This document shows, piece by piece, positions 4,479 to 38,843 of a DNA stretch of 64,000 nt (position 1 is the stretch's first letter; every line of letters begins with the position of its first letter). The stretch is from NCBI GenBank assembly GCA_017557885.1, contig JAFYXV010000011.1, positions 1 to 64,000 of the forward strand, written 5' to 3'. The notes under the pieces are model-generated. The model saw only the letters and a list, made by a program, of their open reading frames with translations, had not been told where the DNA came from and made no database searches. The stretch comes from a bacterium. Lineage in GTDB: Bacteria > Auribacterota > UBA3054. A program made the position numbers and the translations under genes.

Positions 4479-7400
4479 ATGAAAAAACTGCTTATATTCA
4501 CGGCGCTCTTCTTTTTGGGCGCCTCCGCCTTTGCGGATTCCGTCCTCTACGAGACCAATTTCGACAGTATGGAGCTGGGGCCGATCTTCGAGAATTATTC
4601 CGACAGTTGGTACAAATACTACGGCTCCGTCAACGAGGATAACTATATGAACGTGGTGGAGGGAGGCTGCGGAGGAACAGGCCGCTCGCTGCGTTACCAC
4701 TCCTCGGGATATACGATGGCCACCAGGACCAGGATACCGAATAACGAAAATCATTCGCTCACCAAGGACTTCAGGGTCACCTTCATGGTGAACTTTACGA
4801 AGGTCGATAAGATCTCCTTCAACTCCAACGAGGGCGCCGGGGAGCTGCTTTTTTTAAAAAGCGGCGAAGACAAATTTTATATCGAGGGCGGAGACTTCAG
4901 CTTCTCCACCACCAACAGCTGCCCCGTGGGAGAGTGGGTTACGGTCAGCTACACCCTGAACCTGACTCCCGGCAACAGAAAACTTCTTTATCTGAAGTTC
5001 GGCAACGTCGCCTATGAAGACCTGAACGTCCCGATCAATTCCGACGTTGAGGAAGACGCCTTCCCCAATTTCCTTTTCTTCCAATGGGCGGAATCGGAGG
5101 TCAGCATCGATGATTTGAAGATAGAATTGCTTGACCGCAGCGTAGGCGACGTCCAGCTCGCCCTGACCGGAAACAACCGCATTTCGCTTGGCAGTAATTC
5201 CGCCGCGATAAGGCTCATCAACGAAGGCAAAGAGCCCGGAGAAATTACTATAACGAGCGACTCCGCCTTCGTAAAGATCAACGGGCAAGAGAGCTTCGTG
5301 AAAACTTTGGTAGGCGGCGCCTCCACCACCTTGAACATCACCGTTGACCGATCAGAAATGGGCAACGACTATTACATGGCCAATATCAAATGCTCCTGCG
5401 GCTCAATAGAAGCGAGTTATCCCCTCTTCATCCAGTCAGGCGTGGAGGGCGAAGGCTACACCTACTACAGAAGCCACTTCAACGAGTTCGAGACCGGGAA
5501 AGACATAAGGGCGGTCGATCCCGCCTGGAAAAACGGCTACGGCTCACCGGACAATTCCCCCATCGTGGAAATGGACGGCGAAAAAGCCCTGCAGATCAAT
5601 TACAAAAGTTACAACGCCTTCCACGTAAAGTGCGACACCAAAGCCGGCACCTGCGATTCCTACAACTACCGCGTCTCCTTCAAAGGATACGTCCCCAGCG
5701 GCGGCGAAAAATACAATCAGTACAACCTGGGCTCAACCGCCACGGTAAGCGGCAGCGAAGTCATCAACCAGGAGCTGCCCATGGTTTACAATGAAGGAAG
5801 AGGCGGCGTCACCTTCACCCACATGGGCAACGTTTGCCCCCTGGACGAATGGTTCGACGTTTCCTACGTCTTCAACTACCAGCCCGACAACTGCCGGCTT
5901 ATTTCCATCACCTTCGGAGACGTGGTCTCCAACTTAAATTACCTCCTTCCCAACGCCTCCGGAAACCATGATTATTTCAACTGGTTCCGCTTCTTCGGCT
6001 GGTGCGAAGCAAACAGCGCGCCAATCTTTGTAAAAGACCTAGTCATAGATTCCGTAGCGCGGCCCGACGTGGGCCCGGAACTGGAAGTCAGCAAAGGCGG
6101 CCAGATTTTCCTTGATGAAAGCGTATCCTCTTTGACTGTTCTGAACAGCGGGACCGGGAACCTCCCCTTCCGGGCGGAAGTAACGCGTGGCGGAGGGTGG
6201 CTCTCCATCAGGGAGGCCGACGAAGAGACCGGCATCCTGGAAGACACTATCGTTGGCAGCGGCTCCAAGAAATACACCCTGGACATAGTGCGGGCTGACC
6301 TCGGCAATTCCTACGGCTTTGGACAGGTGACCGTGACGGGCGCCGGCGATACCAAGGTCGTGAATTACTTTGTGCAGTCCGGAGACGAGACCGGCGCCAC
6401 GCTGTATTTCAACGACTTCGACTCTATGGAGCTTGGCAATATCAAAAACAGCGATCCTGCCTGGACCGGCGGCGCCGAGGGCCGCGTGGTCGTGGATTCC
6501 GACGGCTCCTGTCTGGAAGTCGTGGGCAGCGACCAGCAGCTGCACGCCATCGTTAAAGCTAAGGAAGGCTCCTCCGCCAACTACAACTATGTCGTCAGGA
6601 TGAAACTGAAATTCCCGGTTGGCGCCACAGGCCCCTTCTTCATCACCGGCACCGACCTCTCCCACCCCCAGGGCGAATACGGGCTCGTAGTCAATAACGA
6701 CAGCGTCGGCGTGGACACCAGGAACTGCAGCAACAATCCCCTCGCCGGCGTGACCGTGCCGGCTGGCGAATGGTTCGAGCTTGCCTACACCTACAACGGC
6801 GACCCCTTGAACAAGCGCCTGCTCAATTTGACCTTGGGCGAAAACACCATAGAGTGCAGCGAGCCCATCAACATCGGCGACAAATACGATTTCTTCAACG
6901 AATTCCGCTTCTATGTTTTCTCCAACGGCGAACATCAGCCCTTCTATGTGGACGATCTCTATATCGGCTTGGAACCAAAGGATGCTTCCAAACCCGGCGT
7001 CATGGACATAAAATGCCTTACTAACCCCATCCCCTATACGGAAAGCGGCACGACTATCAACATCTTGAACGCCGGCGGCCGGGCCTTCACCTACACCGCC
7101 GTGGTGCAGCAGGGGGGCGAATGGCTGACGCTAAGTTCGTACGCCGGGACCGTCGGCAGTTCGGACTCTCTTACCGTCAGCATCGACCGCTCCAAACTTG
7201 GTTACGGCTTCCACCGCGCCGTAGTTAAATTCACAAGCAGCGAGGGAGAAACGAAAAAGCTTACGATCGGCGTGCAGTCAGGCAGCGCGGAAGAGGGCTA
7301 TGTTCTCTACGCTTCGGACATCAATAGTCTCAAACTGTCCGAAGTCGGCGAAGAAGAAGTGACCAACGAGCTCAGCGAGCAGGACGCCTGCTGGGACCGC

Positions 7401-31371: not shown

Positions 31372-31608
31372 TTAAACATCAGGAAAAACTATTTCTCCAG
31401 TTTTTTGCTCCTGCTGAAGCAGCGAATACAACATCGGCGTGCTGTAGTGCCACAATTTTGTCTCTTCCTGTTCCAGAAGAGCATATAGTTTCGAATTATA
31501 GATCTTCGTTATAGCGTCATCTTCCGAGATCTTTTCTTCCTTAACGACTTGGGCAATAAGACCGTCAATGATAATCGGCATCAATACCGTAAATTCATTT
31601 TTATTCAT
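31372..31608 (-). CDS. Small acidic helical protein of the DUF3990 cassette
   Basis: A 78-aa protein, mostly helical and acidic (IIDGLIAQVVKEEKISEDDA, YNSKLYALLEQEETKLW). I do not recognise a named family with certainty; similar small proteins are found with DUF3990 genes. Its start lies inside the end of the DUF3990 gene (8-nt overlap), a sign of tight translational coupling and of a partner or antitoxin role. Confidence 0.6.
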   Translation of the reverse strand: MNKNEFTVLMPIIIDGLIAQVVKEEKISEDDAITKIYNSKLYALLEQEETKLWHYSTPMLYSLLQQEQKTGEIVFPDV

Positions 31609-32092
31609 TGTTTATTTCCCTCGCTTCAATAAACCTTAAAAACTTTAAAGCCTTGTCGCTTCTGAAGACCCACTGCTCTTTCAGAATTTCGGTTTTAAGC
31701 CTTTTTATGGTTTCCTTTGTATCATAAACACCCTGTTCAAAGAGTGTCACCGTTTTATAAACATTATCGTCTGCTATCGGCCCTATCTGTATGTCTTCGG
31801 CCTTGCATATTTCTTTGCCTTTTCTATTGCTTACAACAAACTTCAGACATTCCTTGTCAGCCGTCTCAAAACGAAAAATATCAGTTTGTGTTTTCGCCAG
31901 ATCAAAATCAAATTCGTAAACCGACACAAAACCTAAATCCATTTTGACCCTTTTCATCTTGATCTTGGCCCAGCGAACAGCTTGCTCAAGGGTGGTCGTA
32001 GTATAAAAACCTCTGCCAAAATCAAGAAAGTTATCGCTTTGTATGATCTTTGGCTCCTTGACGATCACCGTGCTTCCATGATATATCTTCAT
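31601..32092 (-). CDS. DUF3990 protein with ADP-ribosyltransferase-like motifs
   Basis: A 163-aa cytosolic protein. MKIYHGST at the N-terminus, then DFGRGFYTTTTLEQAVRWA, then SVYEFDFD and ECLKFVVSNRKGKE match DUF3990, a family I place with ADP-ribosyltransferase/RES-like folds (His, then Tyr with Ser/Thr, then a late acidic position). Enzymes of this kind modify proteins or nucleic acids or destroy NAD and often act as toxins. It is the centre of a four-gene cassette of low G+C with overlapping genes and a strong promoter with almost no leader. Family membership is fairly firm; enzymatic activity and toxin role are inferred. Confidence 0.75.
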   Translation of the reverse strand: MKIYHGSTVIVKEPKIIQSDNFLDFGRGFYTTTTLEQAVRWAKIKMKRVKMDLGFVSVYEFDFDLAKTQTDIFRFETADKECLKFVVSNRKGKEICKAEDIQIGPIADDNVYKTVTLFEQGVYDTKETIKRLKTEILKEQWVFRSDKALKFLRFIEAREINNE

Positions 32093-32385
32093 TCCAGCGT
32101 ATCCAATATTTTGTTAATAGTTTTCTGCTCTTTTAACAGTTCCGACAACATAGTAATGTAATGCTGCCTCAAAGCAAGCAGTTCCCTAACTCTAGCCACC
32201 TTTTCTTCATCCTTTCCTATATACTCATCAAAGATCTTTCCATCTTTTCTGTATTTCAAATAATAATATCTGTTCTTCCTGCAGATCAGAGAGCCCTTGG
32301 GAAGTTCCTTTATCAAGGCCTCGTAATCGCGTATCATTGCCTCGTTGCGCTCGGCCTCGGTTTGTATCACAGTATTAATTATCAT
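32089..32385 (-). CDS. First gene of the DUF3990 cassette, unknown small protein
   Basis: A 98-aa protein from ATG 32385 (an alternative ATG lies at 32337; the frame is also open upstream to 32424, but that part precedes the transcription start). Features: a basic, tyrosine-rich middle (LICRKNRYYYLKYRKDGKIF, EYIGKDEEKV), then a coiled C-terminal helix (LLALRQHYITMLSELLKEQK). The YYYLKYRxxGKxxxxYIGK pattern resembles small beta-hairpin modules in recombinase/transposase-type nucleic-acid binders, so a DNA-binding antitoxin or regulator is possible. Its stop overlaps the DUF3990 start by 4 nt. Confidence 0.65.
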   Translation of the reverse strand: MIINTVIQTEAERNEAMIRDYEALIKELPKGSLICRKNRYYYLKYRKDGKIFDEYIGKDEEKVARVRELLALRQHYITMLSELLKEQKTINKILDTLE

Positions 32386-32391
32386 GCCAAT

Positions 32392-32420
32392 ATTATACCA
32401 CACTAAAAGCCAAAAATCAA
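32392..32420 (-). promoter_or_regulatory. Promoter of the DUF3990 cassette
   Basis: On the minus strand TTGATT (32420-32415), 17 bp, TATAAT (32397-32392). Transcription should start within a few bases of the ATG at 32385, so the first gene would be translated leaderless or from ATG 32337. Confidence 0.75.
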
Positions 32421-32494
32421 TCAAAATGTGTGAGAACGGGCCAATTCACCAACCAGTAATCAATGCATTACCAACAAGTTACAATTATCCTCTC

Positions 32495-32547: not shown

Positions 32548-32639
32548 ACAATGTTTACAAACACTTTTTTCGGGCAAAATTTAGTGTTCCCAAACACTCT
32601 TTTCGGGCCAAAAACAATGTTTGCAAACATTGTTTAAAG
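32548..32639. repeat. Three dyads at exact 33-bp spacing
   Basis: Three related dyads have centres at 32557.5, 32590.5 and 32623.5. The first two repeat units also share TTTTCGGGC 33 bp apart. The third is a perfect 24-bp palindrome (32612-32635, arms AAACAATGTTTG/CAAACATTGTTT) that overlaps the stop codon of the minus-strand gene and is followed by T's on that strand, so it may also act as a weak terminator. Confidence 0.7.
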
Positions 32640-33500
32640 CACTACCCGAAAGCCGTAGAGGGCGCTGGCGTTGCCGGAACAGTTGCCGTCGCGGCGAGCA
32701 GAGCGGCAGTTACCCGCGCAGCTGCGCCAGCAGCCGCCCCGGAATACGCGGATCCCTGTATTCCCGGCTAAGCACCACTCCCACACGTTGCCGTGCATGT
32801 CGTAAAGGCCCCAGGAATTCGGACGATATGAGCCCACGGCCGTCGGGCCTTTGCTTTTCCAAAGATCAAGTCCCCCGTTTCCGGCATAAAGGCCGAGAAT
32901 GTCCAAATTACTGTCCGTATCGATGCTTGCTAAATTCGTCCCATTGTTCAGCGCTGTAACCGTTCCGGCTCTGCAGGCATATTCCCACTGTTCTTCTGTG
33001 GGAAGATCAAAATTCATTTTTAGTTTTGCGCGCAGTTTGCCAAGAAAAGAATAATCATCCACATCGTCGTTAGCAGGCCAAGCGGCGCCTTTTTCCCTGC
33101 CCCTGATGTCAAGGAAAGAAACATTCTGCACTGGTTTTGTATCGCCCACAAATTCGGACGGATCACACCCTGTGATAAGCTGATACTGCTTTTGCGTGAT
33201 TTCAAAAACGCCTATGTAAAAAGGCTTGTCAATTGTTACCTCATGACTGTTTTCATTGTTAAATCTTCCCAATTCATTGGTTGGGCTTCCCATGACGAAT
33301 GTTCCGGCTTCGATCCTTCTTAAGACCAGCTTTGTGGTCTTATAATCATCCGACCATCCACCCGAAGGTTCAACATCAATATAACTCACCTCACCGCTGG
33401 AAAGATCTATCGCCATATATTTAGATTTGTTCTCAGCAAATCCTGTCAAGAACACCGAGACAACAACCGCAGCGCAAGCAAAAAGAAAAAACTTTTTCAT
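32634..33500 (-). CDS. Secreted FGE/C-type-lectin-fold protein with DGR-like variable C-terminus
   Basis: A 288-aa exported protein: signal peptide (to about residue 22), short N-terminal extension, then an FGE-sulfatase/SUMF1-type domain (about 60-288) with AGTFVMGSP, YIGVFEITQKQYQ, LPTEEQWEYACRAG, GLYDMHGNVWEWC, and the end RVFRGGCW ... YGFRVVL. This fold, C-type lectin, is the commonest scaffold of DGR target proteins. Residues 257-285 consist largely of codons ending in C or T with bases varied at positions 1-2, as A-to-N mutagenesis of AAC codons produces. A binding protein with a diversified ligand surface is inferred, not an enzyme. It overlaps the upstream acetylesterase by 4 nt. Confidence 0.8.
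   Translation of the reverse strand: MKKFFLFACAAVVVSVFLTGFAENKSKYMAIDLSSGEVSYIDVEPSGGWSDDYKTTKLVLRRIEAGTFVMGSPTNELGRFNNENSHEVTIDKPFYIGVFEITQKQYQLITGCDPSEFVGDTKPVQNVSFLDIRGREKGAAWPANDDVDDYSFLGKLRAKLKMNFDLPTEEQWEYACRAGTVTALNNGTNLASIDTDSNLDILGLYAGNGGLDLWKSKGPTAVGSYRPNSWGLYDMHGNVWEWCLAGNTGIRVFRGGCWRSCAGNCRSARRDGNCSGNASALYGFRVVL
32646..32740 (-). other. Putative DGR variable region
   Basis: This codes for residues 254-285. At positions expected to vary, the codons are TGC, CGC, AGC, TGC, GGT, AAC, TGC, CGC, GAC, GGC, AAC, TGT, TCC, GGC, AAC, GCC, AGC, GCC, CTC and TAC: mostly NNC, and AAC itself is present four times. The framework WxxxxxNCRSAxR and YGFRV is conserved. This is the footprint of adenine-specific mutagenic homing. 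The template repeat and reverse transcriptase are not in the window, so they would have to act from elsewhere. Confidence 0.6.
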
Positions 33501-34987
33501 TTTTCGTTGATGATCTCGAAGGGCGGGAGCGGGAGGTTGGAGTCTTCGGAGAAGACGGAGCCGGTGTAGGGCGGCTGGGCGAGGTAGCGGAGGCTTTGGG
33601 GTTCCTTGACTTCCGGGGAGGAGACCACTAGCTGAGTTCCCCTTAAGTGGGTGTCGTCGAAGGTTTCGTTCAGAACTTTGGCCGGATGGAACTCTCCGTC
33701 CGGGCCGGCTATTTCAAAACCCTGGGGTTCGGAGCGGTCGTCGTTGTAGTAGTACCAGTTGTGGTTGTCGAAACTGAGGATGAATTTGTCGCCCTCTATG
33801 GTGTAGCCGGTTAATTTCGGGTTGTCGCAGATGATGTCATTGTAGCCGTAGTCGTTTTTAAGAGCGTGGAGAGCCAGTCTTCTGGAGACGATCTCTTTTT
33901 TGTTGGGATGTACGTCGTAGAAATTGCCGACGTCGGCGGTGGAAACAAAACCGGCATTCTTTTCGTTCTGCGCGAACTTGTGCTGGGCGAGGCGGAGCCT
34001 GTAGTACTGGTCGTCGAAGGGAGCGAGCTCCACGAAATAAATCTTGAGGTTCGGGTTCTGGAATTCTTTTGACCAGCCGTCGTACAATGCCTGCATCTTG
34101 TCGGCGTAGATCTCGTGTTCAAAGCTGTTCTGGCAGCCCTGGTACCAGATCATGCCCCTGGCGGCGTAGGGAGTGAAGGGATTTACCATGGCGTTCCAGA
34201 GAACGGTGGGCTGCTCATGGAACCAGGTGATGGCGCCCATGGCCATGGAGCCTTCCCACTTGTTGGTGACGGGATACTCGGCGAAAGCTTTGAGCGTAGG
34301 ATGATTCTCGTAGCCGGATCTCGGCGTCCAGGCGTCGATGTTGGTGCCGCCCCAGCTGGCGTCTATAATGCCGATGGGTATTTCAAGGCTGGCGTAGAGC
34401 TGAAGGGCGTAGTAGAAGGCGATGGCGGAGATGGTCTTCTTATCAGGGCTTTCGTCGTGGCATTCCGTCAGACCTTCTTTGGTGAAGGAACGCCACTTGG
34501 CGTTGATCGCCTTTTGGGGCTGGACGTTCCAGGCTCTGTGGGGCTTTATGAAGCGGATCTTGTCGTTCCTCATGATGGAGATCATCATCTTGCCGTAAGC
34601 GTCTCTGTAGCGCACACCCTGGTCCCACAGGGGGCACTCCATGTTGGATTGTCCGCTAGCCAGCCAGACTTCGCCGACTAGGATGTCATTGATTTCAACT
34701 TTCTCTCCGCTGTCAAGGGAGGTGACGGTCAGAGTTTGCCCCTCCTTGCTGGCTGTAAGGGGGGCGAGCTTGGCGGTCCAGTTGCCGTCGTAGTCGGCTT
34801 CCGCTTTGACAGTTTGTCCGGCGAATTCAACTTTCAGTTTTTCCTTGGTGCCGGCGGTGCCCCAAACGGGGACTGGCATTTCGCGCTGGAGGATGGCGTG
34901 ATCCTGGAAGGGCGTACCGAGTTTGATCTCAGCCGAGGCTTGGAAGGCTAAGAGGGCGGCAATTGAGAGAATGATGATTTGCTTCAT
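33497..34987 (-). CDS. Secreted sialate O-acetylesterase-like protein, second copy
   Basis: A 496-aa paralogue of the esterase at 28997-31132, lacking its C-terminal 200-aa domain. Signal peptide (AALLAFQASA), N-terminal beta domain, SGNH catalytic domain with LASGQSNMEC, DASWGGTNIDAWTP, WYQGCQN and GNFYDVHPNKKE. As in the first copy, Cys replaces the usual Glu in WYQGE. It is expected to remove O-acetyl groups from glycans before glycosidases act. It starts 3 nt after the alpha-galactosidase stop with AAAAAGGAA as SD, and ends overlapping the FGE-fold gene. Confidence 0.87.
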   Translation of the reverse strand: MKQIIILSIAALLAFQASAEIKLGTPFQDHAILQREMPVPVWGTAGTKEKLKVEFAGQTVKAEADYDGNWTAKLAPLTASKEGQTLTVTSLDSGEKVEINDILVGEVWLASGQSNMECPLWDQGVRYRDAYGKMMISIMRNDKIRFIKPHRAWNVQPQKAINAKWRSFTKEGLTECHDESPDKKTISAIAFYYALQLYASLEIPIGIIDASWGGTNIDAWTPRSGYENHPTLKAFAEYPVTNKWEGSMAMGAITWFHEQPTVLWNAMVNPFTPYAARGMIWYQGCQNSFEHEIYADKMQALYDGWSKEFQNPNLKIYFVELAPFDDQYYRLRLAQHKFAQNEKNAGFVSTADVGNFYDVHPNKKEIVSRRLALHALKNDYGYNDIICDNPKLTGYTIEGDKFILSFDNHNWYYYNDDRSEPQGFEIAGPDGEFHPAKVLNETFDDTHLRGTQLVVSSPEVKEPQSLRYLAQPPYTGSVFSEDSNLPLPPFEIINEK

Positions 34988-34990
34988 TTT

Positions 34991-37063
34991 TTATTCCTTT
35001 TTGTTTTTAGGGCAGTCGGGGCACTGGATCTCGCTTTCTTCTTCGCTTTCGGGATCCGGCTTGACGTTCCTGATGTCGGTTAAGCCTTCTTTGAGTTTTC
35101 CGCCCTGTTTGGGGAAGAACCTGACGAGCTGGGTGGCGTGGCTGGGAACTTCGCAGGAATAGGTCTTGGAGAAGATGCCGATGTCCTGCTGGCGCCAGAG
35201 GTCCCTGGCGAGCCAGTGGCCAGTGAGGCCGAGGCTTTCAAGGTTGGCGACTATGGTCTGTTTGGAAGGTCTCTTGGACTTGTTGAAGAAAGCCATGACG
35301 ATGGAGCCGTCGGACATGGGCTTGGCCCAGATCTCGCTCGTTTCGTCCTCTCTTATCCTGGCGGCCTGGGCGCCCAGTTCGTCCTGGTTCACTTCGATGA
35401 CTTCGTCGTTGGTCAAAAGGCTCAGGGTAAATTCGTCAAGGTCCGTGAGATCGCAGCCTATCAGCAAAGGCGAGCAGAGGATGGCCCACAAGGACACGTG
35501 GGTGTATTGTTCATTAGGGGTAAGCCTGGTGGGATGGAGGTCGCCCCAGCCGACTTTGCCGACTATAAGCATGTCTGGGTCGTTCCAGGAATCGGGGCCG
35601 CCGTAGGTCCACAGAGGAACCTGCTTTTCCAATATCTCGAACATTTTGTCCCAGGTGTCCGTGATGTCGCCGGTGGTGCGCCAGCAGCTGCCCCAAACTT
35701 CGTTGCCCCAGGTGGAGACGTCGCCCCAGCCGTACTGGCAGAGGGAAAGGAGGATGTCGCGGTTCTGATTCTTGAGCGCTTTGCCCATCACCGTGTAAGG
35801 CTTGGTCCAGTATTCTTTGCCCTGACCGGTGGCGACTCTGGAATAGGAGCACCAGTCGTACTTTAAGTAATCGTAGCCCCAGTCGGCGTAGGTCTTGGCG
35901 TCCTGCTCTTCGTGCTCCCAGCTACCAACGCAGCAGCCGCAGGTCTCTGGCCCGGGCGAGGAATAGAGGCCGATGCGCAAGCCTTTGGCATGGACAAAGT
36001 CCGCCAGGCCTTTCATGTCGGGGAAGCGCTTGTTGGGAGCGATGGTGCCGTCAGGCATTCTTTCCGGGCCCATCAGGGTGTCGTCGTGTTTTTCCCTGGG
36101 GCGGTTCTGCCAGAAGTCGTCGATGTTGATGTAGTTCCAGCCGTGGTCGGCCAGGCCGGAATTTACCATGGCTTCCGCAGCTTTTTCAATATCCTTTTGG
36201 GAGACTTTGGCGGCGAAGCAGTTCCAGCTGTTCCAGCCCATGGGCGGAGTCAGGGCGATCTTGTCCCCCACCACGAGCTTCAAAGTTCTTTTCGTTTCGC
36301 CGAGTTTGTTCTTGGCGGTGAAAGTTATTTCGTAGGTGCCCTCTTTCTTGACGCTGCCGGTCAGAATGCCGGTCTCTTTGTCAAAGCTCGTTCCTTCGGG
36401 AAGATTCTCAGCCTTGAACTCCATGGGGCGTTCGCCGGAAACTGGCAGACGGTAGATGATGGGGTGATCCGGACCTACGCCGAAAACTTTCGGGCCGTTG
36501 ATGCGCGGTGTTTTCAGGATCTTGGGGGAAAGAATGCCGAGCTGCTCGACGGCGTTCTGCACAGGCTCGATCGTAGCTCCATCCTCTGCTGTGAAGAAAG
36601 CCTGGCACCAGTCGGCGTGGTCGCACTCCTCGCCGTCGATCTTGTCTATCTCAAGCTCGAATTTTGTGGCGCCCTTGAGGTCGGCTTTCAAAGTAATGGG
36701 GCCCCTGTTTTCGTATTTGTCGCCGAGCTTCGGAGATTCCGCCACCAGTTTGTCGTCGGCGTAAACTCTGAAGATCACGTCTCCCTCTTTCTCGGCGTCG
36801 TCGTCCAAGCCGACCACCGCTTCGAAGGAAAGAACCTTGCCGTCAAGCTTAAAGCAGCCTTCGCCGGGGGAATGGGAGCCGACGCCCCTTTCGTAAACTT
36901 TGCCTTTTATAGTTAAGGGATTGCCGTCCACGCTGCGGTTCTTGGTGGCGCTCTTCCAATTCTGCCTTATGTGACCAAGCGGCAGAGTATCGAGCCAGAT
37001 GTTGGTCTCGGCCAGGACGCCGAGCGCGGCGAAAAGACTAAGTGCGAGGCAAAGTTTCTTCAT
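34991..37063 (-). CDS. Secreted NPCBM - GH27 alpha-galactosidase
   Basis: A 690-aa exported glycosidase. Signal peptide 1-18; an NPCBM carbohydrate-binding domain (about 20-165: GHIRQNWKSATKNRSVDGNP, RGVGSHSPG); an Ig-like putative binding domain (185-265); the GH27 TIM barrel (270-560) with PPMGWNSWNCF, YINIDDFW, nucleophile region YLKYDWCSY, acid/base region CWRTTGDI and DPDMLIVG; a C-terminal beta domain; and an acidic tail ending CPDCPKNKK. It releases alpha-linked galactose from galactomannan, raffinose-type sugars or host glycans. Together with the esterases on both sides it forms a small glycan-degradation cluster. Confidence 0.92.
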   Translation of the reverse strand: MKKLCLALSLFAALGVLAETNIWLDTLPLGHIRQNWKSATKNRSVDGNPLTIKGKVYERGVGSHSPGEGCFKLDGKVLSFEAVVGLDDDAEKEGDVIFRVYADDKLVAESPKLGDKYENRGPITLKADLKGATKFELEIDKIDGEECDHADWCQAFFTAEDGATIEPVQNAVEQLGILSPKILKTPRINGPKVFGVGPDHPIIYRLPVSGERPMEFKAENLPEGTSFDKETGILTGSVKKEGTYEITFTAKNKLGETKRTLKLVVGDKIALTPPMGWNSWNCFAAKVSQKDIEKAAEAMVNSGLADHGWNYINIDDFWQNRPREKHDDTLMGPERMPDGTIAPNKRFPDMKGLADFVHAKGLRIGLYSSPGPETCGCCVGSWEHEEQDAKTYADWGYDYLKYDWCSYSRVATGQGKEYWTKPYTVMGKALKNQNRDILLSLCQYGWGDVSTWGNEVWGSCWRTTGDITDTWDKMFEILEKQVPLWTYGGPDSWNDPDMLIVGKVGWGDLHPTRLTPNEQYTHVSLWAILCSPLLIGCDLTDLDEFTLSLLTNDEVIEVNQDELGAQAARIREDETSEIWAKPMSDGSIVMAFFNKSKRPSKQTIVANLESLGLTGHWLARDLWRQQDIGIFSKTYSCEVPSHATQLVRFFPKQGGKLKEGLTDIRNVKPDPESEEESEIQCPDCPKNKKE

Positions 37064-37073
37064 GTATTTCTCC

Positions 37074-38843
37074 TTATTTGTTAAAGCCTTTCTGGTTCAT
37101 GAATTCCCAGATGCGGTCCATAAAATTGTAACTGCCGGTTTGGGGGGCGGCCTTGGCCTGGAAGCAGTGGTTTCTCGTGGCGAAGGTGTGCAATTCGGAC
37201 TGAATGCCCATGCGGCGCATCTGCTCCCAAACTTTCACGGAGTTCATGGAACTCCAGCCGTCGGAGTCGCCGTGCAGGAATAAAACGGGAGGCGTGGCCC
37301 GGTCGAAGGCGAATTCTTTCACGATCCTGACATCGTCGCCGTTGCCGTCTCCGTTGTTGTTCCTGTCGATCTGGTCCGTTATGCAGTAAGCCGGGTAAAT
37401 AGCCACGCCCCACTGGACGCTGCAGGAATAGTTGTCGGTTTCGTCGATGGGCCAGTAGGCGTGGGACATCGAGTTGAGGCAGCCCATCAAAGTCAAATGT
37501 CCGCCGGCGGAGCAGCCCATGACGCCGATCATATTTGGATCAAGGCCGTATTCCGGAGCTTTTTTTCTGACGATCCTTACCGCGCGCTGCAGATCCTGCC
37601 AGGCGGAGATGTGCTTAGCCAAGGGAGGAAGCGGCCTGGGCTCGCGGTGCTTCAAGGTTACCACCGTCATGCCCTTCTCGTTCAGGTAGCGTCTGACAGG
37701 CGCCGCTTCAAAACCGTTGGGGTCGTTCCCGTAATAGCCGCCGCCGGAATAGACGATCTGGATGGACTTGGTCTTCCTCTCCTTGGGGAAGTGCCATTCG
37801 ATGTAAGGCCTCACGGTCTGATTCGTCTGAACGTCCGGCATCGCGCCCTCCGGCCAGATCTCTTCTTTTAGATATTCGCCCCTGGCATCGTCGGAGGCGA
37901 AGCGGTCCATAAGCTTTTTCTCTTTGCCCAACCTTCCGTCAAAATTCATCTGGCGCAGGAATTCCTCCGCCCGCTCAAACCAGGTGTCGTAGGGGGCGCC
38001 TTCGCAGGCCTTGGTCCCCCACTTGCCCATGAAGCCGTGGCTGCGGTCGGCGAAGAGGTGGAGTTCCGCGGGAACATGGAGTTTTCTCAAGGCCCGGTAG
38101 ATCTCCGTGGAGCCGTTGGGGGAATATAAGTCCGTGCCGCCGTGGAAAAGGCACATAGGACAGCTCCTGGCGTCGAATTTGAAGGCTTTCGTCAGCTGGA
38201 CGTCTATGGAGTTGCCGTCCCTGGTATTCGGCCCTTCCAGGCCGTCTGAGAGCGCGTAGGCCGTATAGATTGGTATGGCCCAGTTGATGTGGCAGGGCGT
38301 TTGGTCAAGCTCGTCAATAGGTTCGTAGGCGGGAGTTAGGCTGCTGACGCCCAACATGACCGTCAAGTGCGAACCGGCGGAGAAACCCAAAGCGCCGATG
38401 TTCTCGGTAGAGTAGCCTCTTTTCTTCGCTTCGCTCCTGACGATCCTGACGGCGCGCTGCCCGTCCTCCCAGGCCGTCTGGTAAATGGGAAGGCCTTTGG
38501 GACGGGGCACGCGGTAAGCGAGGTTGACGCACTGGAAGCCCAGCTCCGTCATGCGTTTCGCAATGGCGTCGATCCAGGGCATGTCGCAGCGGCACTCGTA
38601 GGCGCCGCCGGAGATGAGGATGAGGCAGCCCTTGGCGGGATTGGGTTTTTCAGGCGCGGCGTACCACTCCAGGCTCGGCGTCTCGCTTTTCACCTGATGC
38701 TCCTGAAGATCGGGCATCTTGCCTTCCGGCCAGAGAGGCGTGGTCTCGCAGTTTTCGGGGAGAGCGAAAAGCGTTTGCGCCAAAAGACAAAAGAGCGCCG
38801 TCATATTCAGTGCGGCGTTTCTGATAATGAAAAAATTATTCAT
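37074..38843 (-). CDS. Secreted tandem alpha/beta-hydrolase (double acetyl esterase)
   Basis: A 589-aa protein made of two homologous esterase domains of about 280 aa. Domain 1 (about 35-300): ISGGAYECR oxyanion region, GFSAGSH nucleophile elbow, FHGGTDLYS acid and RSHGF histidine. Domain 2 (about 320-589): YSGGGYYG, GCSAGGH, LHGDSDGWS and RNHCF. Both triads look complete. Each domain begins with the same linker (PLWPEGKMPDLQ, EIWPEGAMPDVQ). An N-terminal hydrophobic stretch (NMTALFCLLAQTLFALPE) is the likely signal peptide. It resembles xylan or pectin acetyl esterases of the BD-FAE/Axe type. SD AAGGAAAGG; 9 nt after polC. Confidence 0.87.
   Translation of the reverse strand: MNNFFIIRNAALNMTALFCLLAQTLFALPENCETTPLWPEGKMPDLQEHQVKSETPSLEWYAAPEKPNPAKGCLILISGGAYECRCDMPWIDAIAKRMTELGFQCVNLAYRVPRPKGLPIYQTAWEDGQRAVRIVRSEAKKRGYSTENIGALGFSAGSHLTVMLGVSSLTPAYEPIDELDQTPCHINWAIPIYTAYALSDGLEGPNTRDGNSIDVQLTKAFKFDARSCPMCLFHGGTDLYSPNGSTEIYRALRKLHVPAELHLFADRSHGFMGKWGTKACEGAPYDTWFERAEEFLRQMNFDGRLGKEKKLMDRFASDDARGEYLKEEIWPEGAMPDVQTNQTVRPYIEWHFPKERKTKSIQIVYSGGGYYGNDPNGFEAAPVRRYLNEKGMTVVTLKHREPRPLPPLAKHISAWQDLQRAVRIVRKKAPEYGLDPNMIGVMGCSAGGHLTLMGCLNSMSHAYWPIDETDNYSCSVQWGVAIYPAYCITDQIDRNNNGDGNGDDVRIVKEFAFDRATPPVLFLHGDSDGWSSMNSVKVWEQMRRMGIQSELHTFATRNHCFQAKAAPQTGSYNFMDRIWEFMNQKGFNK

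Follow-up and report, generated by a model that had tools for sequence, protein, structure and literature searches.

The gene located at positions 33500-32634 on the minus strand of the window (the whole stretch of 64,000 nucleotides analysed here) raises the question of whether its 3' end was written by a DGR and, if so, whether this DGR still operates on it. The gene product (288 amino acids) harbors one FGE-sulfatase domain (PF03781, E 1e-30), and among relatives of solved structure the closest in sequence is TvpA (2y3c, E 4e-40), a DGR variable protein of Treponema denticola. Its AlphaFold model (pLDDT 91) structurally matches PvdO, TvpA and FGE, and its N-terminus carries a segment, MKKFFLFACAAVVVSVFLTGFA, which looks by eye like a signal peptide. 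These findings agree with the preliminary description of a secreted protein of the FGE/C-type-lectin fold, the secretion being judged from this segment. The Pfam domain and the fold are also those of the formylglycine-generating enzyme FGE/SUMF1, in which the canonical catalytic cysteine pair lies in the motif RGGSWLCHxSYC. When RGGCWRSCAGNCRSA of the window protein is compared by eye with this motif, the first cysteine is apparently missing and only the second one (in CRSA) aligns; unlike the FGE/SUMF1 pair, the remaining cysteines occupy variable NNC codons.

The final 35 codons and the stop codon of the window gene are as follows: CGG GGC GGC TGC TGG CGC AGC TGC GCG GGT AAC TGC CGC TCT GCT CGC CGC GAC GGC AAC TGT TCC GGC AAC GCC AGC GCC CTC TAC GGC TTT CGG GTA GTG CTT TAA. 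This tail keeps the framework residues RGG, W, A, CRSA, R and GFRV. Between RGG and GFR, 17/19 of the non-framework codons are NNC and the other two are NNT, as compared to 28% of C-ending codons upstream in the gene. A slightly wider count yields 17/21 C-ending codons in the variable region (VR) versus 56/200 upstream (p = 3e-6), and the proportion of C-ending codons per non-overlapping 29-codon stretch of the gene reaches 76% at the VR and at most 41% elsewhere. The NNC-rich tail and its framework had been correctly noticed in the preliminary description, except that AAC is left at three places, not four, and that the segment spans 35 codons, not 38. We place the presumed relic of the VR, from RGG to the codon preceding GFR, at positions 32655..32741 (minus strand); it has the same layout as the template of an intact DGR of the phylum, G018, described below. 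The 3' framework GFRVVL and the stop codon (32634..32654, minus strand), the expected site of the DGR initiation-of-homing region, lack the GTTCAA found at the 3' end of recently homed paralogs.

In the source genome (G000; 13 contigs, 92.7% complete), the FGE domains akin to that of the window gene number about 40, some of them in tandem, in ORFs of up to 1768 amino acids, and many FGE domains also occur in each of the seven congeners compared, all of which are ruminant-gut MAGs. The NNC signature was individually significant (p < 0.01) in 19 of the 28 paralogous C-termini tested, and over these 28 C-termini the hypervariable codons are C-ending in 67% of the cases, versus 32% upstream. This preference holds within synonymous families, the C-ending codon being used in the variable positions for 65/71 Tyr (versus 44% upstream), 54/61 Gly (versus 47%) and 44/52 Asp (versus 42%), so that the choice of amino acids does not explain the NNC excess. 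Neither is this excess intrinsic to the FGE fold, because, among FGE relatives from other bacteria, C enrichment was significant (p < 0.01) in 34/63 C-termini and several others have only 5-16% of C-ending codons. Separately, two otherwise diverged paralogs of the source genome, C7:83.6k and C7:87.6k (L120, positions 3636 and 7609), have in common an exact 111-nt tract, which ends three codons into the VR.

Four paralogs (C7:134.1k, C7:135.2k, C9:17.0k and C9:18.1k) have in common a cassette that extends from TGTTCTC followed by CGGGGCGGG to GGCTTTCGTATAGCCCTAGTTCAA, a 3' end that the window gene lacks. Their framework DNA is 100% identical and so is the 24-nt 3' end, whereas outside the cassette they are 66-77% identical upstream and mostly near chance downstream. 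In the 17 codons from RGG to CRSAxR, the variable columns are distributed as six at the first codon position, four at the second and none at the third, while upstream of the cassette the third positions differ in 48-61% of the codons. The NNC share of the four cassettes is 91-96%. As judged from these sequences, this pattern appears to be the footprint of mutagenic retrohoming, which would explain it; mutation and selection, or conversion alone, does not. VRs with identical framework DNA differ in length, from 13 to 19 codons after CRSAxR (L122 (C7), 2960 and 4070; L126 (C9), 5664 and 6810). Plain copying of one fixed template would not produce such a variation; slippage on AAC repeats or the use of several templates could be its source. 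The congener G006 possesses its own set of VRs, with a different framework, which are 95-98% uniform within this genome.

A complete DGR occurs in G018, a member of another family of the phylum (L299, G018:C25:1-15000, positions 1-1990). It comprises a PEP-CTERM-like FGE target with its VR, an Avd (NF033474, PF22296), a reverse transcriptase (RT) with the GLPIGNLTSQ motif and a template repeat (TR), RGLRGGSWNNNANNLPSSNRNNNNPTNENNNIGFRV, with 13/13 of the VR/TR mismatches falling at TR adenines. The template layout, RGGSWNNNANN....NRNNNNP...NNNIGFRV, places the variable positions where the window gene varies. This intact DGR (contig C25) and its relative in G025 thus resemble the window gene by their FGE target and the arrangement of its variable positions; the G018 system differs from it in that Avd, RT and TR adjoin the target, the framework is LPSS instead of CRSA and the target has a PEP-CTERM-like tail. 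The G018 RT is 96% identical to that of G025, which belongs to a different genus, and this identity suggests a recent transfer and mobility. Since the same methods, including the repeat scan, recovered the complete G018 DGR, our search methods work. Elsewhere, an adenine-biased near-repeat at L180 (Kiritimatiellae RGIG2765; 5861-5997 and +1804), with 14/14 mismatches at A, probably represents a further DGR with an FGE target, and L151 also carries adenine-biased repeats. Together, the codon-position signature, the fold, the homing footprint in four paralogs and the shared layout of the intact DGRs of relatives provide good support for the proposal that the tail of the window gene is, by origin, a DGR variable region.

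The core of such a DGR was searched for in the source genome and its congeners. With the RT family PF00078, the best match in the source genome is at chance level (E 0.15) and no DGR reverse transcriptase was found; this weak RVT_1 match, at C7:135606 beside an FGE gene, was not retained as an RT. The seven congeners similarly yielded no DGR RT. An RT-like ORF of 628 amino acids in G006 (L067 745-2631, G006:C178), found in this congener only, has a QGGALSP motif and is not of the DGR type. A protein search with the G018 Avd produced clear matches in G018, G025 and G039, and none in the genus of the source genome. Regarding the template, a degenerate pattern accepting an A or the same base at each position of the window VR, with at most 3 mismatches, matched only the VR itself in the source genome; the search for a template with the conserved CRSA motif returned only VRs or nothing in the source genome, its relatives and IMG/VR; the shared 3' end of the cassettes was found across the genus only in the four VRs, and IMG/VR gave no template for it; and the template model had no match among the phages and plasmids of INPHARED and PLSDB. 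Adenine-biased near-repeats at loci of the L003/L013 type were rejected as templates, their spacing being that of tandem FGE domains. Hence, both items that the preliminary description had proposed to look for in the genome, an adenine-biased template repeat and a DGR reverse transcriptase, were found neither in the 13 contigs of the source assembly nor in the seven congeners. Absence from one genome that is 92.7% complete is no proof, as the core could sit in the missing DNA; that a chromosomal core was missed by chance across eight genomes is unlikely. As neither a template nor an RT was seen, and there is no TR/VR pair to read, we deduce adenine specificity in the genus from the codon positions.

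Whether the VR is still changing can be judged from the one close ortholog of the window gene, which occurs in the sister species G007 (86% amino-acid identity). In this pair, the VR changes are distributed as 3/1/10 over codon positions 1/2/3 (32 codons), and the divergence amounts to 14.6% of the sites in the VR versus 13.0% upstream; in this one ortholog pair, the VR has therefore not varied in excess of the remainder of the gene. Most ortholog groups across the congeners are frozen in the same way. In a few groups, such as L233/L250/L263/L279, by contrast, variation in the VR exceeds what is seen in the remaining parts of the gene. In one group with 99.2-99.8% upstream identity, the 96-base VR has 3-5 base differences, all at positions 1-2 of NNC codons. 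In another group, strong divergence is confined to the linker and the VR, with signs of recombination, and the G003/G004 orthologs have identical VRs and a replaced linker. So, on the evidence of these comparisons, diversification appears to have been recent in some lineages and loci and to have stopped at the window gene. The adjustable, currently diversified target that had been suggested is not supported, given the lack of a detectable RT, TR or Avd, the third-position changes in the VR, the missing GTTCAA end and a VR whose divergence in the G007 ortholog was not faster than elsewhere in the gene.

The surroundings of the window gene bear on another earlier suggestion, namely its expression together with acetylesterases and an alpha-galactosidase. 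Upstream lie, all on the minus strand, a SASA-family (sialic-acid-type) acetylesterase gene (33497..34987; PF03629), which overlaps the window gene by 4 bp; a gene encoding NPCBM and alpha-galactosidase domains (34991..37063; PF16499, PF08305, PF17801); and a tandem alpha/beta-hydrolase gene (37074..38843), BD-FAE/acetylxylan-esterase-like according to sequence and domain searches. The linkage is thus real in the source genome, yet G007 does not share it: there, the esterase gene is set apart from the FGE gene by an ORF of 106 amino acids and a terminator-like sequence (L134:3607-4052), together with a separate ribosome-binding site. Because of these intervening elements, co-expression with the esterase is at most a feature of the source genome, and that a glycan is the ligand of the window protein is only a guess. 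By eye, the 106-amino-acid ORF of G007 looks like an antirepressor/BRO-type fragment, and it is not present in the window. Right after the stop codon, a hairpin with a 10-bp stem followed by a T run (32611..32635, minus strand) is also present in the G007 ortholog, where a T-A to C-G change affects both sides of the stem; it is likely a transcription terminator, judging from its sequence. We also considered this palindrome as a DGR cruciform, an interpretation less favoured than a terminator in view of the T run and of the both-sided change in G007. Further downstream (31601-32424, minus strand) are two small ORFs of 163 and 111 amino acids, which overlap and, by eye, resemble a DUF3990/DUF3791-type pair.

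We propose that the window gene is probably an orphaned DGR target, the tail of which was written by a DGR whose core is absent from the assembly and from the seven congeners, presumably lost or located off the chromosome, and the copy of which is now frozen. In this process, a template RNA bearing AAC (Asn) codons would have been reverse-transcribed with random bases incorporated opposite its adenines, and the cDNA would have replaced the 3' end of the window gene, thereby rewriting the C-terminal binding face of the protein. Many of the about 40 FGE domains of the genome would have been targeted likewise, and the window copy would have been fixed since the split from the G007 lineage, turning it into an ordinary invariant ligand-binding protein. 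Counter to this reading are the two NNT codons among the 19 variable codons of the window gene, the unequal lengths of VRs that have identical frameworks, the fact that no template or RT was seen, and the incompleteness of the assembly. The main competing view, which we regard as possible while giving it clearly less credit, is that of a live DGR that acts in trans on some FGE genes from a core outside the assembly (in a plasmid, a phage, an island or an unbinned contig); in this view, the window gene would be retired or seldom used as a target. The pristine state of the four cassettes of the source genome, with their NNC share above 90% and identical frameworks, the ortholog group in which nearly identical genes differ at NNC positions 1-2 of the VR, and the mobility suggested by the nearly identical RTs of two genera of the phylum all speak for it, as do the trans action and hidden structural variants known in Thiohalocapsa (PMC10907252). 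This view has to contend, however, with eight genomes devoid of RT, TR and Avd, with the lack of a matching template in IMG/VR, INPHARED and PLSDB, and with the frozen state of most ortholog groups. A broader version of it, which is more doubtful still, would be that this gut-bacterial genus keeps up to about 40 secreted lectin-fold domains that are still rewritten in trans by a mobile-element DGR absent from the chromosomal assemblies, with AAC-repeat slippage varying the loop length by whole codons.

Two other explanations dispense with reverse transcription at present or altogether. Recombination or gene conversion among the about 40 paralogous domains might shuffle an archive of old VRs, as could be thought from the exact 111-nt tract of C7:83.6k and C7:87.6k that ends at the VR start, the G003/G004 orthologs with the same VR and a replaced linker, and the variation in VR length. 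We find it improbable, since conversion would move the variable codons together with the framework, whereas the four cassettes share all framework bases and differ at most variable codons, and no long tracts of variable codons are common to non-orthologous VRs. Positive selection of the ordinary kind, acting on a binding loop and combined with a local codon bias, is far less credible, even though the variable residues (Y, D, G, S, N) are loop-friendly and FGE C-termini hold a conserved motif anyway: the third positions are invariant and positions 1 and 2 vary, which is the reverse of what mutation and selection produce; the C preference exceeds that of upstream regions within nearly every amino acid; and there are FGE relatives that lack the signature.

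If the window gene is indeed an orphaned target, the target side of a DGR can be large, can be recognised by codon statistics alone and can lie apart from its engine. Applied to other genomes, this codon test could reveal targets that are orphaned or diversified in trans. DGR surveys that start from the RT overlook targets with a core located elsewhere or lost, as pointed out for remote targets by Roux et al. 2021 (PMC8144416). The genus would also offer a natural experiment on how hypervariable binding proteins, dozens of them, fare when they are no longer diversified.

Remote targets have been described in cyanobacterial DGRs, which have variable proteins encoded away from the core, dispersed CLec paralogs and 3'-end VRs, one of them described as having no RT close by and retaining a remnant of TR-VR homology (Vallota-Eastman et al. 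2020, PMC7517822). The source genome resembles them in its dispersed CLec paralogs and 3'-end VRs; it differs from them in that the cyanobacterial genomes hold the DGR core and their targets are mostly predicted to be cytosolic, whereas here the core was not found and the window protein is probably secreted. The direct precedent is provided by the RT-less strains of Treponema denticola, which keep 2-6 leftover DGR targets of the TvpA family (Nimkulrat et al. 2016, PMC4891356). As in the source genome, these are secreted or surface FGE/C-type-lectin-fold proteins with adenine-derived VRs, dispersed in a strain that has neither RT nor TR. The two cases differ in that the T. denticola templates are known from sister strains, whereas here none is known and the core was found in no sampled member of the genus, and in that the VR lengths vary in the source genome. 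The present case is of the same kind on a larger scale, with about 40 FGE domains instead of 2-6 target genes per strain, and it is remarkable in that it has so many targets, that homing was recent although no RT is visible, and that its VRs vary in length.
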